DNA from: an uncultured Moraxellaceae bacterium
GTDB lineage: Bacteria; Pseudomonadota; Gammaproteobacteria; Pseudomonadales; Moraxellaceae
DNA length: 37,988 nucleotides
Direction: 5' to 3'
Assembly (NCBI GenBank): GCA_913057715.1
Contig: CAJXOR010000012.1
Coordinates: 1 to 37,988 of the forward strand
This document shows, piece after piece, positions 20,499-37,988 of this stretch; the stretch's first letter is position 1, and every line of letters starts with the position of its first letter. The notes under the pieces were generated by a model. That model was not told where the DNA came from and did no database searches. It worked only from the letters and a program-made list of their open reading frames with translations. The translations under genes and the position numbers were made by a program.

Positions 20499-21404
20499 TC
20501 AGTCAATCAGAAAGTTGCCGGTATCCTGAGACTTGGCAACCTCGATAAACCGACTCAAGTGGGGTAGCTCGCGCTCGCTGCTCCGCACACCTAGGTGGAT
20601 CTGCTTGTGGATACCTGCTCTGCCGAGCGACAGCGCGCGGATCGGCAGGCTCTGGGCATGACGCGTCGCCAACCACTTGGGCAAAGTGGCGACGCCGCGG
20701 TTAGAGGCGACCATGTGCAGGATCATCTCGGTGGCCTCAAGCGTCTTGTGGCTTTTGGGCTGCTGCCGGGCGGGGGTTAAAAATTGCGCAAAGATATCGA
20801 GTCGCTCGCTTGCCACCGGATAGGTGTAGAGCACTTGGTCACGCAGCTCCTCTGGCATCACTAAATTCTTTGTAGCCAGCGGATTTTGGTTACTCACGAT
20901 CAGTACCTGCTCATAAGCAAAAACCGGCTCAAAAGTGACACCGAACGTGAGCACCGGATCGGGGGTGACCAGAATGTCGATCTCGTGGTTGAACAGCGCT
21001 GCCATGCCGCCAAACTGAAAGCGCTGTTTGACATCAACCTCTAGCCCCGGCCGCTGCTGCATAAAGGGGTCAATCACCCCGAGCAGCCACTGATAACAAG
21101 GGTGACACTCCATGCCGATATTGAGACGCCCAAGCTCGCCGCGCGCATGTTCCAGCAAGCGCCGATCCAGCCGTTCGAGTTGCGGCAGCAGGCGCTTGGC
21201 TTCTTTGAGCAGATAGTTGCCCGCTGGGGTGAGTTTGAGCTTGCGCCCCTCTTTGACCCAGAGCGCGCCGCCCATCTGCTGCTGCAGTTTGCTGATCTTG
21301 TGGCTGAGCGCCGACTGAGTCAGGTGTAGCGCTTCGCCTGCCTTGGTTAGAGAGCCGTGTCTGTCGATCTGATCCAAGATACTTAAGTGGCTTCGCTCGA
21401 TCAT
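20499..21404 (-). CDS. metR: LysR-family regulator MetR
   Basis: This 301-residue LysR-type regulator activates methionine biosynthesis genes with homocysteine as co-effector. The N-terminal winged helix-turn-helix is at about 1-60 (GSLTKAGEALHLTQSALSHKISKLQ). The effector domain shows LNIGMECHPCYQWLLGVIDPF, which is characteristic of MetR, and DILVTPDPV later. Length is normal. It is divergent from metE, the typical arrangement, and both promoters share the gap that holds MetR-like sites. The ATG at 21402-21404 has no ribosome-binding site of its own at good spacing. AGGAGAA instead sits before an upstream six-codon frame whose TGA overlaps this ATG, so metR translation may depend on that leader. 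Confidence 0.95.
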   Translation of the reverse strand: MIERSHLSILDQIDRHGSLTKAGEALHLTQSALSHKISKLQQQMGGALWVKEGRKLKLTPAGNYLLKEAKRLLPQLERLDRRLLEHARGELGRLNIGMECHPCYQWLLGVIDPFMQQRPGLEVDVKQRFQFGGMAALFNHEIDILVTPDPVLTFGVTFEPVFAYEQVLIVSNQNPLATKNLVMPEELRDQVLYTYPVASERLDIFAQFLTPARQQPKSHKTLEATEMILHMVASNRGVATLPKWLATRHAQSLPIRALSLGRAGIHKQIHLGVRSSERELPHLSRFIEVAKSQDTGNFLID

Positions 21405-21421
21405 ACCATTCGCTCGATCAT
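21401..21421 (-). promoter_or_regulatory. six-codon upstream ORF coupled to metR
   Basis: An ATG at 21419-21421 lies seven bases after AGGAGAA on the minus strand. It encodes MIERMV, then TGA overlapping the metR ATG as ATGA. The 12 bases ATGATCGAGCGA occur at both starts, 17 bases apart, so a small duplication seems to have created the leader. Confidence 0.6.
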
Positions 21422-21550
21422 CTACCGGTTCTCCTCAAATGTCATGGTTGGATAGTTAAACCAGGTTTCACCATCCGCTTTTTGCTAGCGATGAAAAGTC
21501 GCAAACCAAGTCAGTGCATCTAGTCACTCCACCTAGGCTCAGATTAAATC

Positions 21551-21593
21551 ATGAATAATTCTCATATAAGCGTGAGTTTATACCATTATTCAT
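21551..21593. promoter_or_regulatory. MetR-like binding sites between metR and metE
   Basis: ATGAATAAT at 21551-21559 and ATTATTCAT at 21585-21593 form a perfect 9-base inverted repeat. TGAATAATTCTCA at 21552-21564 matches the MetR consensus TGAA-N5-TTCA at seven of eight fixed bases. The location, 63 or more bases before metE, fits activation of metE. Confidence 0.65.
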
Positions 21594-21655
21594 CATGAGT
21601 GGTTTCCCCTAAAGTGCTCGGCAACGTTAATTGAAAAAGCTCAAAGGAAACCACC

Positions 21656-24130
21656 ATGGCCAAGCTTCACAATCTGGGTTTTGCGCGCATCGGCCCAAAC
21701 CGCGAACTTAAATTTGCACTTGAGGACTATTGGGGCGGACGCAGTACGGCTGACCAGCTCTTAAGCAGGGCTCGCACTCTCAGGCTGCAAAATTTGGGCG
21801 CGCAGCAGAAACTAAACCTAGTGCCGGTTGGCGATGCCTCGCTCTACGATCACGTGTTAGATATGAGCGTGACCTTGGGCAATCTGCCTAAGCGCGCCCA
21901 AAGCTTGGAGGCTAGCGATCTGGATCGCTACTTTTGTGCGGCACGCGGCCGCTCAGCGCTAGCCGCTGCTACAGATAAGACAGCAGAGTCGGGCGCTCAA
22001 TCCTGCTGTCCTAAGCACGATCACCCCCAGCCCGAAGCACGGGAGTCTGTGCAAGGCTCAGATAGCAGTTCAGATCACAGCTCGGCTCAAGAGATACAAG
22101 CGGCGCAGATGACCAAGTGGTTCGACACTAACTACCACTACCTTGTGCCTGAGTTTTCAAACGAGTGCCATTTTTCACTCAATTCAGGGCGTCTGCTGAC
22201 TCAGTTGGCTGAAGCGCAAGCAACCGGAGCCAAAGCAAAGCCGGTGATCCTGGGACCGATAAGCTACCTGTGTTTGGGTAAATCCAAAGACGACATTAAC
22301 CCGCTAGGCTTACTGCCGCGCTTACTGACGGTCTATGCCGAGCTCTTAAGCGAATTGCACGCGGCGGGCGCTGAGTGGGTGCAGGTCGATGAGCCGGTGT
22401 TGGTGACTGAACTTGAGCCTGAGTGGCGTCAGGCGTATGAGCGTGCCTACCATGCACTGCAGGGAACCGGCGTAAAATTGCTCTTAACCACCTACTTTGG
22501 GGAGTTGGCAGAAAACTTGAAGCTGGCGCTGGATCTGCCGGTCGCAGGCCTGCATATCGATGCAACCCACAGCCGCCGTGAGATCACCGCCGCCATCGAC
22601 TGGTTACCCGAAAACAAAGTGCTCTCCCTTGGGGTGATCAGCGGACGAGAGGTCTGGAAGGCGGATCTGACTTCCTTGCTTGATTGGCTTGAGCCAATCG
22701 CGGAGAAACTAGGGGATCGGTTGTGGCTGGCACCTTCGTGCTCACTCTTGCATGTGCCGGTGGATCTTACCGCTGAACATACCAACGGTGATGCCGATCA
22801 ACAGGGTGCTCGATTTATACCCAATTTAAAACCAGCGTCTGGCATAGATCCTGAAGTGCTGCGCTGGCTGAGCTTTGGTCAGCAGAAGATTGAAGAGTTA
22901 AGCCTGCTTGGCCAAGCGCTGAACCAAGGCCGAGACAGCGTGGAGGCTGAACTTCGCACCAATCAGCAGGACTGTGAGGCTCGCCGGTCGTCCACCAAAG
23001 TTCACAATCCTGAGGTGAAGGCACGCGTCGCTCAGATCACCCCGGAGCACGCCCAGCGCAACAGCCCATACGCGCTTCGCAGCAAAATCCAACAGGGTCG
23101 ATTGAATTTGCCCCTGTATCCGACCACGACCATTGGGTCATTTCCACAAACAGCTGAGATTCGTAAGGCACGGCTAGATTATAAAAAGGGGCGGATCGGT
23201 TTTGAAGCCTACCAAGAGTTGATGCAGGAGCAGATTTCCCAAGCGGTGGCTTATCAAACCGAGCTGGGACTCGATGTGCTGGTTCACGGGGAAGCCGAGC
23301 GCAACGACATGGTCGAGTACTTTGGCGAGCAGCTCAGCGGTTTTGTAATCAGTCAGTTTGGTTGGGTGCAGTCCTACGGATCGCGATGCGTGAAGCCGCC
23401 GATCCTGTTTGGTGATGTGTCGCGGCCTGCTGCCATGACGGTGGCGTGGAGCCAGTTTGCCCAGTCGCTCACCGATCAGCCTATGAAGGGTATGTTGACC
23501 GGTCCGGTGACGATCCTGAACTGGTCGTTTGTGCGTGACGATCAAACGCGAGCTGAGAGCTGCATGCAGATTGCGCTGGCGATCCGCGACGAAGTGCTGG
23601 ATCTTGAGGCGGCAGGTCTGCCAATCATCCAGATCGATGAGGCAGCTCTGCGCGAGGGATTGCCGCTCAAGCGCCGCGAGTGGCAGGCGTATTTGGATTG
23701 GGCGATCCGCTGTTTTCGTATCGCGGCGAGCGGTGCGGCTGACACCACTCAGATCCACACTCATATGTGTTACTCAGAGTTTGGCGACATCATGGAGTCG
23801 ATCGCGCGCATGGACGCTGACGTGATCACGATTGAAACCTCGCGCTCGGACATGCAGCTGCTGGGCGTCTTTGAGCGCTTTGATTATCCCAGCGCGATCG
23901 GTCCCGGAGTCTATGACATCCACTCCCCGAACCAGCCGAGCATCGATCACATTGTGGGTCTGATGCAAAAAGCAGCCAAGCGCATCGACCCTGAGCGGCT
24001 CTGGGTCAACCCTGACTGCGGGCTGAAAACCCGCCAGTGGCCTGAGGTGTTGGGCGCGCTTGGGCACATGGTGGCGGCAGCTCAAACTTTGCGCGAGCAA
24101 GCAATTAGTCGTAAAGAGCTAACCGCTTAG
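21656..24130 (+). CDS. metE: cobalamin-independent methionine synthase
   Basis: MetE transfers the methyl group of 5-methyltetrahydropteroyl-triglutamate to homocysteine, making methionine without vitamin B12. The N-terminal half has [19 protein letters not shown] and later [14 protein letters not shown]. The C-terminal catalytic half begins at [10 protein letters not shown] and holds [42 protein letters not shown] (His and Cys zinc ligands) and NPDCGLKTR (third ligand). At 824 residues it is about 70 longer than the E. coli enzyme. Most of the excess is a polar insert at about 103-148, containing [11 protein letters not shown] and Ser/Asp runs; a smaller one lies near 376-392. Both sit in the N-terminal half and leave the active site intact. 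AAGGAAA precedes the ATG. It is divergent from metR, and its 3' end is duplicated further downstream. Confidence 0.97.
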
Positions 24131-24232
24131 CAAAATGCCCACGCTAGCTGTAATCCCTTGAGGTTTATGCGCAGCGCGGTTAGTTGGCTTATTAGGAATC
24201 TTCCCGCGAGTACATAGTTAAGTGCTCGCGGG
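24074..24232 (+). repeat. metE 3' end plus terminator stem, copy 1 of a direct repeat
   Basis: These 159 bases align without gaps to 25656-25814, with 13 mismatches by my count (about 92% identity). It covers the last 18 codons of metE, the dispersed motif and a hairpin at 24203-24232 (CCCGCGAG / CTCGCGGG). Unlike copy 2, the hairpin is followed by CTTATCG rather than a T tract. Confidence 0.93.
24129..24142 (-). repeat. dispersed motif copy overlapping the metE stop
   Basis: On the minus strand it reads GTGGGCATTTTGCT, the full consensus. It begins inside the metE stop codon. Confidence 0.7.
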
Positions 24233-24446
24233 CTTATCGTTACTCGCAGCTATAAAACCATCGCTCGGACTTAGCCAAAGCTGCGTTGATCAAGTTTTGC
24301 CCTAGGCAGATGAACCCGCTTATGTTTGAGCAAGGTGATCAAGGGGCGAAAAAGCCTTTAGCTAAGCTCTTCTTAAAGCCAGCTCTAAGGAGCACATGAA
24401 GGATGGCTTATAAGCGCACGGTCTTAAGCTGAGTCAAAACCAGCTT

Positions 24447-24504
24447 GATCAGATCTCAGATCTGAGATCTTTGTTCAGAGGCTAAAGCGATCAGCAGATC
24501 GATC
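24447..24504. promoter_or_regulatory. GATC cluster with a perfect 20-bp palindrome
   Basis: AGATCTCAGATCTGAGATCT at 24451-24470 is a perfect palindrome with three GATC sites. Four more GATC sites lie at 24447, 24489, 24497 and 24501, giving seven in 58 bases. It is in the leader of the transporter gene, 158-215 bases before its start. A Dam-sensitive or dimer-protein operator is possible; this is inference. Confidence 0.55.
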
Positions 24505-24620
24505 GTGATTTTTGCACTTGAGTGGGGTGGTTTATACTTTGAATACGTTAAGATTCAGCACCCTGATCAGCGTGCTAAATCAGAGTTTTTAATACAAATC
24601 TGCTGTCATCCACTTACCTA

Positions 24621-24640
24621 AGCGTGCTTATAATCACGCT
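24621..24640 (+). promoter_or_regulatory. -10 element inside a small inverted repeat before the transporter gene
   Basis: AGCGTG and CACGCT flank a TATAAT at 24629-24634, 28 bases before the start codon. No good -35 hexamer is seen at 17 bases. A second candidate -10, TATACT, lies near 24533. The rest of the 24233-24661 gap holds the GATC cluster and no gene. Confidence 0.5.
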
Positions 24641-24661
24641 GTTTGCCGCTGAGAAATCACC

Positions 24662-25600
24662 TTGAATACCGAAGAAAAAGACTTAGAAAAGGAGATGCGT
24701 ATCGCTGAGAAGCGATCGGTTGATCCTGATGACCAGCTTCATGATGCCCCAGCCAAAGGGGAAGTCATTAGCGACTATTTTTCCTTCAACGAGATCTTCG
24801 CCCGTATCTTATCAACGGCTGACCATGAGCTGAACGCCTCCAATCGTTACTTGATTTGGAGCGGCTTGGCTGCTGGTTTTGCCTTAGGACTGACATTTTT
24901 AGCCCGCGTGACTTTCACCGAAGCGTCTGGAGAAGCTGAGCCACTGCTTCTGGGTAACTTGCTCTACCCGGTAGGATTTTTGATTATTGTGCTAGGGCGC
25001 TATCAGTTATTTACTGAAAACACGCTGACGCCAGTGGTGCTGGTACTGACTCGGCTGGCCTCAGTCGTGAACACCCTCAGACTTTGGGTGATCGTGTTGA
25101 TCACCAATCTGGTGGGTGCGGTGGGAGTGGCAATCCTCATATCGAGTTTTGAGGTACTCACGCCTGAGCAGCAGCTCGTGGCGATTGAGATGGGACAAAA
25201 GGCGGCTGCAGAATCTTGGTTTGACTTGTTTTCCCGAGCGCTTTTTGCCGGGTGGATCGTGGCGTCTATGGTGTGGTTAGTTCATGCGGCTCGCGACACC
25301 ATCTCACGGATATTTATCATTTATATCTTGATGTATTTTGTGGGTGTGGCTCACCTCTACCATATCGTGACCTCCTCAGTTGAGGTGTTCTATCTGGCTC
25401 TAGAGCTAAGCTCGGTTGATATGCTGCCTTTGTTTAGCTCGTTTGTGCTTCCGGTGCTACTCGGCAACACCATCGGCGGGGTGTTTTTTGTGGCCTTGCT
25501 AAACTACGCCTTATTTGCCGAGCATGAAGACTCTGAGCTATTTAAGACTTACGGTGAAAAGCTGTGCTGGCGCGACTGGGTTTTCGGCAAGCGCTCTTAG
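24662..25600 (+). CDS. formate/nitrite transporter family membrane protein, YfdC-like
   Basis: This inner-membrane channel of the FNT family has 312 residues. A polar, charged N-terminal region of about 45 residues precedes six hydrophobic helices. Family features include WSGLAAGFALGLTF (first helix), LLYPVGFLIIVLGRYQLFTENTLTPV (the FTEN segment typical of FNT), a second half with ALFAGWIVASMVWL, then VAHLYHIV and VLLGNTIGGVFFVALLNY. The long charged N-terminus and overall length match YfdC-type members rather than FocA or NirC, and the transported anion is unknown. The start is the TTG at 24662. An ATG 11 codons later abuts AAGGAG with no spacing and is less likely. The gene is bracketed by two copies of the metE 3' end, suggesting insertion beside metE. 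Confidence 0.88.
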   Translation: MNTEEKDLEKEMRIAEKRSVDPDDQLHDAPAKGEVISDYFSFNEIFARILSTADHELNASNRYLIWSGLAAGFALGLTFLARVTFTEASGEAEPLLLGNLLYPVGFLIIVLGRYQLFTENTLTPVVLVLTRLASVVNTLRLWVIVLITNLVGAVGVAILISSFEVLTPEQQLVAIEMGQKAAAESWFDLFSRALFAGWIVASMVWLVHAARDTISRIFIIYILMYFVGVAHLYHIVTSSVEVFYLALELSSVDMLPLFSSFVLPVLLGNTIGGVFFVALLNYALFAEHEDSELFKTYGEKLCWRDWVFGKRS

Positions 25601-25655
25601 TGGCATCTTTAATCGCCTAGATGCGCGATTGAGCAGGCGCCAAGCCCAGTTGTTA

Positions 25656-25814
25656 GCGGCAGCTCAAACTTTGCGCGAGCAAGCAATTAGTCGTAAGGAG
25701 CTAACCGCTTAGCAAAATGCCCTCGCTAGCCGTGATCCCTTAAGGTTTCTGCGCAGCGCGGTTAGTTGGCTTAGTAGGAATCTGCCCGCGAGTGCTTGGA
25801 TGAGTGCTCGCGGG
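25656..25814 (+). pseudogene. metE 3'-end remnant, copy 2 of the direct repeat
   Basis: This is the second copy of the 159-base segment at 24074-24232. It still encodes [18 protein letters not shown] and a stop identical in protein to the metE end, but with no metE upstream. It starts 55 bases after the transporter stop. The mismatches are spread along the segment and concentrated in the hairpin loop, while the stem arms are unchanged. Confidence 0.9.
25711..25724 (-). repeat. dispersed motif copy in the metE remnant
   Basis: On the minus strand it reads GAGGGCATTTTGCT, one base from consensus. It is the duplicate of the copy at 24129-24142. Confidence 0.65.
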
Positions 25815-25820
25815 TTTTTA
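25785..25820 (+). terminator. Rho-independent terminator after the transporter gene
   Basis: CCCGCGAG and CTCGCGGG form an 8-bp stem around a 14-base loop, followed by TTTTTATTTT. It is the intact version of the metE terminator. The 85 bases beyond, up to glpK's stop, hold only a small AGCATC/GATGCT hairpin. Confidence 0.92.
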
Positions 25821-25906
25821 TTTTAAAACTAAACATTGAGAGCGTCGCAGCATCTAATCTTTGATGCTCCAAAAGCTACGTTAATTATTGCACCGCAGAC
25901 ATTTGC

Positions 25907-27394
25907 CTAACTCGATCTCACCCGACCCACCGCGTCCTGCCAACCCTCATAAAGGCTGCCCCTGAGTTCTTCATCCATGAGCGGCTCAAAGCTCTGCTCC
26001 GAGCGCCACAGCCCAGCGATAGCGTCAAGCGACTCATAAACGCCAAGTTGCAGCCCAGCCAAGAGCGCCGCACCCAGCGCCGTGGTTTCCACCCCTGCCG
26101 GACGATCCACGCTCACGTGCAGCAGGTCACTTAAAAACTGCACAAACCAGTCGTTTGCCGCCATGCCGCCGTCGATCCGAAGCTTGGAGAGCGGGGCATC
26201 GCAGTCCGCCTGCATCGCCTCAGACAAGTCACGGCTCTGGTAGGCGACCGACTGCAAACCCGCACTGACGATATCGGCGATCGAGGTGCTGCGGGTGATC
26301 CCGAACATCGCGCCGCGCGCGTCAGGATCCCAGTGCGGCGCGCCCAAACCCGTAAAAGCAGGCACCAAGTACACTCCGTGATCCATGCCAACCTGCTGGG
26401 CGATCGCTTCGGTTTCGCAGGCTGACTCGATCAGTTTGAGTCCGTCGCGCAGCCACTGCACAGTCGCCCCCGCGATAAAGATACTGCCCTCTAGCGCATA
26501 GGTGGTTTTGCCCTTGAGGCGGTAAGCTACTGTGGTGAGAAGCCGGTTTTGTGAAGTGACCGGCTCATCCCCAGTGTTCAGGATCATAAAGCAGCCCGTC
26601 CCATAGGTGCTCTTGATCATGCCCGGCGTAAAGCACGCCTGTCCGATCAACGCGGCCTGTTGATCACCCGCCATGCCAGCAACCGGCACGCTTGCGCCAA
26701 ACACACCCGCGTCGGTCAAACCAAAGTCGGCGGCGCAGTCACAAACCTCAGGCAGTAGCGCCTCAGGCACGCCAAACACCTCAAGCAGCTCGGCATCCCA
26801 GCTTTGGGTGTGGATGTTAAACAAACAGGTCCGCGCCGCGTTGGTGGCGTCTGTCTTGTGAGACTTGCCGCCAGTTAAGCGCCACAGCAAAAAGGTGTCT
26901 ACGGTGCCAAATGCCAACTCGCCCGCTTCAGCTTTTGCCCGCGCTCCCTCCACGTTATCCAGCACCCAGCCGATCTTGGTGGCGCTGAAGTAGGGATCGA
27001 GCCTCAGGCCTGTTTTGGCCTGAACCTGATCCTCTAAACCGGCTTCTTTAAGTGTCACGCAGGTTGCGCTGGTGCGCCGATCCTGCCACACGATCGCCGG
27101 ATAAACCGGTTTATCCGTTTCGCGGTCCCACAGGATCGTGGTTTCACGCTGATTGGTGATGCCGATACCGGTCAGCTGATTCGCCTCGATCCCCGCGTCT
27201 TTAAGCGCCAGCTTGCAGACTTCTAAAGTCAGCGCCCAGATCTCATCGGGGTCGTGCTCCACCCAACCGCTCTTGGGATATGACTGGGTGATCTCGCGCT
27301 GCGACTGACCCAAAGCGCGCGCCTCCCGCCCAAACACAATCGCGCGCGTGCTGGTGGTGCCCTGATCAATCGAGAGCAGGTAAGTTTGGGTCAT
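25907..27394 (-). CDS. glpK: glycerol kinase
   Basis: GlpK phosphorylates glycerol to glycerol 3-phosphate with ATP in the cytosol. The N-terminal [16 protein letters not shown] is the phosphate-binding loop of the FGGY kinase family. Other conserved segments are [65 protein letters not shown] and [18 protein letters not shown]. The frame is open to 27466, but the ATG at 27392-27394 is the start: AAGGA lies eight bases before it, and it gives 495 residues, the normal length. There is no glpF or glpD beside it, so it stands apart from the usual glycerol operon. The diacylglycerol-kinase-like gene upstream on the same strand may be functionally related through lipid turnover, but the gap is 137 bases. 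Confidence 0.97.
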
Positions 27395-27444
27395 GAGCTC
27401 ATCCTTAAGCATTTGCCGTAAGCTTACCCTGAGCAGCCCTGCGG

Positions 27445-27457
27445 GTAAAATGCCCCC
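27445..27457 (-). repeat. dispersed motif copy upstream of glpK
   Basis: On the minus strand it reads GGGGGCATTTTAC, lacking the final GC. It lies 50 bases upstream of the glpK ATG. Confidence 0.55.
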
Positions 27458-27531
27458 TGTCGACACTTTTGACCGGGTTCTGGTTCGGCGGATTAGCGGG
27501 AGTATCTATCGCTGACATTTCACGCAAAAAT

Positions 27532-28425
27532 TTAGGGCACCATTACCCGTATCGCCTGCGTCGCAGAGGTAATCTCAAGCGGCAAAAAACCCACCGCATC
27601 GCCGTCCGCCTGCACCGGTTCAGGGTGCGCGCTTGGGTTCAGATCGCGGATCGTAACCGAGGTTGCCCTCAGTTCGTGTACGCCAGGGGTGCGAGCAAAT
27701 ACACCATAGGGCAGTACCAGCAGACGCAGCATAAACCCCAGCTGACTGATGCCCGAAAGCGTCATGACTTGGAGGCTTGAGCTTGAGAGATCGGCGTGCT
27801 CGGAGAGCTTATAGGAGCCGCCGTAAAAGCGGCCGTTACAGACCATGACCGAGTCGGCCAAAAGCGTTTGTCCGTCCGCGATCACCTCATATTGCTTGGA
27901 GCCGATCAGTTTTAGGTGGCGCAGCATCGCGAGCACATAAGCCACTTTGCCCCAGTTTTTTTTGATCTTCAGGTTTACCCCGCTGACCACCCAAGCGTCA
28001 AAGCCGACCCCAGCCATGAGCATGAAGCGGCGGCCATTTATCTGCGCGGGGTAGATGGGTTTTAGCTTGCCGCCGTGGATCGTGCGGGCGGCAAAGCGGG
28101 AGCTAAATTTGATCCCCAGTTCACGCGCCAGCACGTTGGTGGTGCCGGTCGGTATGATCGCAAGCCGGTACTCATCTCCTCCGCGCTCGCTTAGTCCGTT
28201 GACCACCTCGCCGATCAACCCGTCTCCGCCCGCAGCCGCCACGATGTCGAGCACTCCTTCAAACTCCCGCAAGTAACGCGTTGCGTCCCCTGCGCTTTGA
28301 GTAGCGTAGTAGCTTACTCCGTAGCCCAGTTTTTTGAGACGATTGGCGGTGCGCTTGACCATGAGGCTTGATCCGTCGCCGCCTGAGATCGGGTTATGGA
28401 TGATCAATATGTGAGGCATAGGCAT
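27532..28425 (-). CDS. diacylglycerol kinase family lipid kinase
   Basis: This is a soluble lipid kinase of the DagK/YegS/sphingosine-kinase catalytic family, about 297 residues. The N-terminal ILIIHNPISGG is the first nucleotide-contact strand. AAGGDGLIGEVVNGL holds the GGDG signature for ATP binding. IPTGTTNVLARELG corresponds to the PxGTxNxxA motif. MAGVGFDAWVV then opens the C-terminal beta-sandwich domain, and VQADGDAVGFLPLEI near the end gives the typical DGE/D-like segment. It probably phosphorylates a diacylglycerol or related lipid. The start could be either of two ATGs six bases apart (28425 or 28419); the ribosome-binding site is weak. It lies between glpK and the MOSC gene on the same strand. 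Confidence 0.88.
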   Translation of the reverse strand: MPMPHILIIHNPISGGDGSSLMVKRTANRLKKLGYGVSYYATQSAGDATRYLREFEGVLDIVAAAGGDGLIGEVVNGLSERGGDEYRLAIIPTGTTNVLARELGIKFSSRFAARTIHGGKLKPIYPAQINGRRFMLMAGVGFDAWVVSGVNLKIKKNWGKVAYVLAMLRHLKLIGSKQYEVIADGQTLLADSVMVCNGRFYGGSYKLSEHADLSSSSLQVMTLSGISQLGFMLRLLVLPYGVFARTPGVHELRATSVTIRDLNPSAHPEPVQADGDAVGFLPLEITSATQAIRVMVP

Positions 28426-37941: not shown

Positions 37942-37988
37942 CTGTCTCTTATACACATCTCCGAGCCCACGAGACTAGGCATGATCTC
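37942..37988 (+). other. Nextera i7-side adapter (non-genomic)
   Basis: CTGTCTCTTATACACATCT is at 37942-37960, the Tn5 mosaic end in reverse. CCGAGCCCACGAGAC follows, then TAGGCATG (which matches the Nextera i7 index N706) and ATCTC of the flow-cell adapter. This is library DNA, not genome. Confidence 0.98.

Follow-up and report, generated by a model that had tools for sequence, protein, structure and literature searches.

A direct repeat of the metE 3' end and terminator on both sides of a formate/nitrite transporter family gene in an uncultured Moraxellaceae bacterium

The window analysed here is the whole of one contig (C12; 37,988 nt) out of the 131 that make up a draft genome of 2.23 Mb from an uncultured Moraxellaceae bacterium. 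Its subject is a gene of the formate/nitrite transporter (FNT) family that lies between the methionine synthase gene metE and the glycerol kinase gene glpK, with a copy of the metE 3' end on either side of it. All positions are coordinates of the window, and comparisons within it were made by ungapped alignment and by a BLAST self-comparison. The features of the locus are the following.

21656 to 24130, plus strand: metE (cobalamin-independent methionine synthase), above the cut-offs of NCBIfam NF003556 and TIGR01371
24074 to 24235, plus strand: repeat copy 1, with the last 18 metE codons, the stop, a 3' untranslated stretch and a terminator hairpin
24203 to 24232, plus strand: terminator-like hairpin of copy 1, 11 pairs, weak T tract (terminator scan, folding)
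24236 to 24661, plus strand: non-coding leader of the FNT gene, 45% G+C (0.446), with a promoter-like site at 24511-24538
24662 to 25600, plus strand: FNT gene with a TTG start (Pfam PF01226; tree)
25656 to 25817, plus strand: repeat copy 2, a metE tail without gene body followed by a terminator, starting 55 bp behind the FNT gene
25784 to 25815, plus strand: terminator-like hairpin of copy 2, 14 pairs, strong T tract (terminator scan, folding)
25907 to 27466 (longest open frame), minus strand: glpK (glycerol kinase), convergent with metE and the FNT gene, above the cut-off of NCBIfam TIGR01311

The two copies of the repeat, 24074-24235 and 25656-25817, stand in direct orientation on either side of the intervening DNA. 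Over 162 bp they differ at 14 positions (91.4% identity; E 7e-61), and no other direct repeat was found in the window at E ≤ 0.01. A preliminary description of the locus had reported 159 aligned bases with 13 mismatches, and exactly 13 fall within 24074-24232. When the repeat is taken to begin at 24069 (24069-24235), it has 16 mismatches in 167 bp. In each copy the last 18 codons of metE and the stop are followed by some 70 bp of 3' untranslated sequence and then by a terminator hairpin, and the right edge of the homology lies 3 bases beyond the terminator stem. Copy 2 keeps all 18 codons and the stop with one synonymous change and has no metE body in front of it; the ungapped comparison thus confirms the earlier statement that it encodes the C-terminal residues of MetE alone. 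The placing of a transporter gene in a segment of about 1.4 kb between direct repeats was likewise borne out, the FNT gene, with its Pfam Form_Nir_trans domain, being the sole gene there. A 181-bp query of the repeat matched these two places only in the draft genome, and the non-coding part of the repeat found matches (E ≤ 0.01), among 193 loci, only in the window's own loci. The 1.4-kb segment matched itself and otherwise stretches of at most 46 bp in its own genome, so that no source for it was found there.

A terminator stem is present in both copies. The terminator scan scored the tail of the copy 1 hairpin, CTTATCGTTA, as weak and that of copy 2, TTTTATTTTA, as strong; in folding, copy 1 has a z-score of -2.28, matched by 3 of 200 shuffled sequences, and copy 2 one of -1.61, matched by 13 of 200. 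The T tract, said earlier to be kept in copy 2 and lost from copy 1, is indeed kept in copy 2 and is weakened rather than lost in copy 1. The proposal that copy 2 is the original metE end agrees with the geometry, since it is the copy on the glpK side, but the T tract is no proof of it because copy 1 retains a stem, with a weak tail. The FNT gene probably now uses copy 2 as its terminator.

The metE reading frame is complete at copy 1, with 824 open codons, and metE is the single match of its kind in a search of the draft genome. At about residues 102-146 MetE carries some 40 extra residues (with CC and HDH), at which the matches of relatives break and then resume almost without a gap. Matches to metE at E ≤ 0.001 were present in 37 of 58 genomes (own included), many of them short or distant (~25% identity); the genus is represented in the genome search by this genome alone. 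Neighbourhoods of metE were compared over 104 loci, 24 from the genome search and 80 from genome contigs, the window's own being left out. A strong metE match is present in 98 of them, and the DNA behind the match reaches at least 1.4 kb in 82, at least 5 kb in 61 and less than 0.5 kb in 9. At E ≤ 1e-5 a relative of metR is carried by 83 of the 104 loci, and neither FNT nor glpK was found in any of them (0/104 each, the DNA behind metE being limited in some). The adjacency of metE and FNT is therefore not ancestral in what was seen.

The product of the FNT gene belongs to the FNT family by its Pfam domain Form_Nir_trans (PF01226), which it has in common with FocA, NirC and their relatives and which covers residues 44-282 (E 4e-50; 171 bits, gathering threshold 34.6). 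It also matched FNT proteins of solved structure, with a best E of 2e-12. Its scores against the NCBIfam equivalog models were 67.1 bits for FocA (cut-off 290.1) and 27.3 for NirC (cut-off 293), and it fell far below the cut-off of TIGR00790 (fnt). Unlike FocA and NirC, it groups with proteins of haloarchaea and of a distant family of the phylum, here designated f90. Two further FNT paralogues occur in the genome, at C2:30109-30810 (34% identical) and C19:22883-23635 (29%), on other branches of the tree. In the leader, 24451-24470 is a perfect 20-base palindrome, detected as a minus-strand self-match, which may be an operator or a hairpin. The open frames of the leader that were tested gave no family match, and no RNA family was found over 21300-27600 up to E 1.

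Within the family of the host organism 162 of 348 genomes (own included, here and for the order, class and phylum) hold a relative of the FNT protein at E ≤ 0.001; the best long matches besides the gene itself are 31-35% identical, and 39% was reached over two short fragments. In the order 21 of 390 genomes pass 1e-35, the best other match being 38% identical. A threshold of 1e-45 is passed in the class by 3 of 369 genomes, the two besides the own having matches of 40 and 43% identity, and in the phylum by 2 of 398, the other match, 65% identical, being from f90. In that family 5 of 121 genomes carry the gene at 62-66% identity. The neighbours of FNT in the f90 loci look like genes that we take to be those of pyruvate dehydrogenase, in one locus with a presumed enolase gene, and they have no match to other proteins of the window. 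Plasmid records gave 114 FNT matches, the three top ones (47.6-49.5%) on haloarchaeal plasmids; for phages the identity was at most 32.6% among the best 10 of 14 matches, and no viral contig scanned carried FNT. In a maximum likelihood tree of 34 sequences, chosen by hand from the search matches and with long branches flagged elsewhere in the tree, the window FNT is sister to the f90 sequences (96/99), and the haloarchaea come next (90/95, not starred). To judge from these comparisons, the FNT gene looks horizontally acquired. Its G+C content is 0.502 and that of the leader 0.446, compared with 0.509-0.611 for 25 other window open frames of more than 150 codons, which may be taken as weak support for a foreign origin; the first open frame of the window has 0.466.

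The mismatches between the two copies of the repeat were sorted by class. There is 1 in 57 coding positions (a synonymous change of a Lys codon), 1 in 22 positions of the terminator stem, 4 in the 8 of the loop and 8 in 75 other non-coding positions. The coding part differs from unpaired non-coding sequence (1/57 vs 12/83; Fisher p 0.015), as does the stem from the loop (p 0.011); when the coding part was first tested, with the whole 102 non-coding bases up to 24232 for comparison, p was 0.033. The number of coding differences expected is 5.1 if copy 2 had always been a free tail and 2.0 if selection for metE had acted on both copies; the one difference observed corresponds to a likelihood ratio of about 9 for selection on both. 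The pattern lends modest support to a divergence of the copies while each was a functional metE end, whether in separate lineages or as two complete genes, before the present arrangement came about.

The explanation preferred here, held at about even probability, is that the repeat was left as a scar by a single homology-anchored insertion, at some time in the past, of DNA that brought a diverged metE end together with FNT. The incoming DNA, a linear or circularised piece, would have carried a metE 3' end already some 14% diverged at unconstrained sites, followed by FNT. Homologous exchange would have taken place between this end and the resident metE end. Closure of the insertion would have come from that crossover itself (single-crossover, Campbell-type integration) or from an illegitimate join immediately after FNT. 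In the order of the product, the intact metE would be joined to the incoming terminator and followed by FNT, by the resident metE tail with its terminator, and by glpK. A homology that ends at the terminator is as expected for orthologous metE ends with different downstream neighbours. Of the two origins that the preliminary description had left side by side, recombination with a related metE region is favoured by the distribution of the mismatches and by the foreign affinities of FNT, while tandem duplication with later deletion stays as a rival.

Several points weigh against an insertion of this kind. The order metE then FNT was found in no genome searched, and the proposed donor is therefore unseen. 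The codon usage and third-position G+C of FNT are not outstanding, several genes of the window being as low or lower. The mismatch tests rest on 14 mismatches, with the classes drawn after these had been seen; a repeat start at 24069 gives 3/62 coding against 12/102 non-coding differences (p 0.17), so that the outcome of the coding test depends on the chosen start. The longest identical run, 41 bp, arises in 20% of random placements, and gene conversion of the coding part would produce the same mismatch pattern. The Moraxellaceae include one species with homology-facilitated illegitimate recombination (HFIR). Like HFIR, or a single crossover, the event proposed at metE would admit foreign DNA through one homologous anchor, and the foreign origin of the inserted DNA is indicated by the FNT tree and identities. 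HFIR has been described from three competent species; its insertions and deletions average about 1 kb, and its products generally carry a deletion of similar size, not a duplication (PMC3240628). The 162-bp duplication found here, such as a single crossover would leave, appears to fit single-crossover integration better than HFIR.

A tandem duplication within the lineage, of metE with FNT or of the metE end with FNT, after which the second metE body and the second FNT would have been deleted, is a rather unlikely origin but the strongest of the rivals. It requires no unseen metE donor, and two full metE copies maintained for a long time would also explain constraint on both ends. It demands, however, at least two events after the arrival of FNT, and it makes the right edge of the homology at the terminator a coincidence; a duplication of the tail alone predicts about 5 coding differences where 1 is observed. 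That the genome holds no second 1.4-kb copy is neutral toward it.

More doubtful still is the remnant of an integrative element for which the metE 3' end would have served as attachment site, and which would have supplied a replacement metE end, lost its integrase and kept FNT as cargo. Its anatomy would come near to that of e14 in icd of Escherichia coli K-12, where the duplicated gene end measures 165 bp with 12 nucleotide exchanges, two conservative residue changes and the reading frame intact (PMC11148124), compared with 162 bp and 14 mismatches at metE. In both cases the 3' end of a host gene lies on both sides of the inserted DNA and the frame is kept, and the divergence is similar (about 7% between the e14 copies; PMC11148124). 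By this comparison e14 at icd appears to be the closest precedent for the locus. The duplicated stretch is coding in icd (54 residues), whereas at metE 57 bp are coding and the remainder is 3' untranslated sequence and terminator. Unlike e14, a prophage with a putative integrase gene, the insert at metE is 1.4 kb long and carries a single transporter gene and no mobile gene. A Pfam scan of the 29 window open frames of at least 100 codons (6 of them without any match) recognised no integrase or transposase, and the lack of family matches for the tested leader frames also speaks against an element. The DNA of the locus had no match in phage DNA; of 34 plasmid records with matches, the best 10 match the metE end only; and a 26-base repeat pattern search, made as a check for phage or plasmid origin, found none.

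An assembly artefact that fused two strain variants is very improbable: the draft is in 131 contigs with untrimmed Nextera adapter at contig ends, but adapter core occurs in the window at its two ends only, and the DNA before copy 2 does not clearly resemble the part of metE that precedes the repeat and therefore offers no apparent overlap to cause a false join.

Elsewhere in the window, adapter sequence occupies 1-37 and 37942-37988, at both contig ends, and also occurs in two loci on other contigs of the same genome (L176:16276-16294 and L185:2725-2743). We take it to be the Nextera transposon-end adapter, left untrimmed in the assembly. The first open frame, 21-2576, starts inside the adapter and has a low G+C content (0.466). 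It matches PADLOC HmaC (AAA+ ATPase) over model positions 97-941 of 941 with 1284 bits, as well as Pfam DUF499, and is a candidate gene for anti-phage defence, truncated at the contig end. A search of the draft genome for 16S rRNA gave no match, although the genome is listed as 95% complete.

The locus is thus interpreted as a probable insertion scar of known kind and a fairly ordinary one. It adjoins a core gene and lies between convergent genes, a place in which an insertion does little harm. Exchange between the two copies, within their 41 identical bp, could excise FNT and leave metE intact. It is conceivable, at long odds, that FNT is a removable single-gene cassette, gained and lost in the population by way of the metE tail-terminator repeats without the machinery of a mobile element; if so, the loss of FNT would leave metE with a working end and terminator. 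The contrast between conserved coding and stem positions and diverged loop and spacer offers a way to ask whether the copies of such a repeat diverged before or after they came together, and the locus provides a small, readable record of the acquisition of a single gene without a recognisable integrase.

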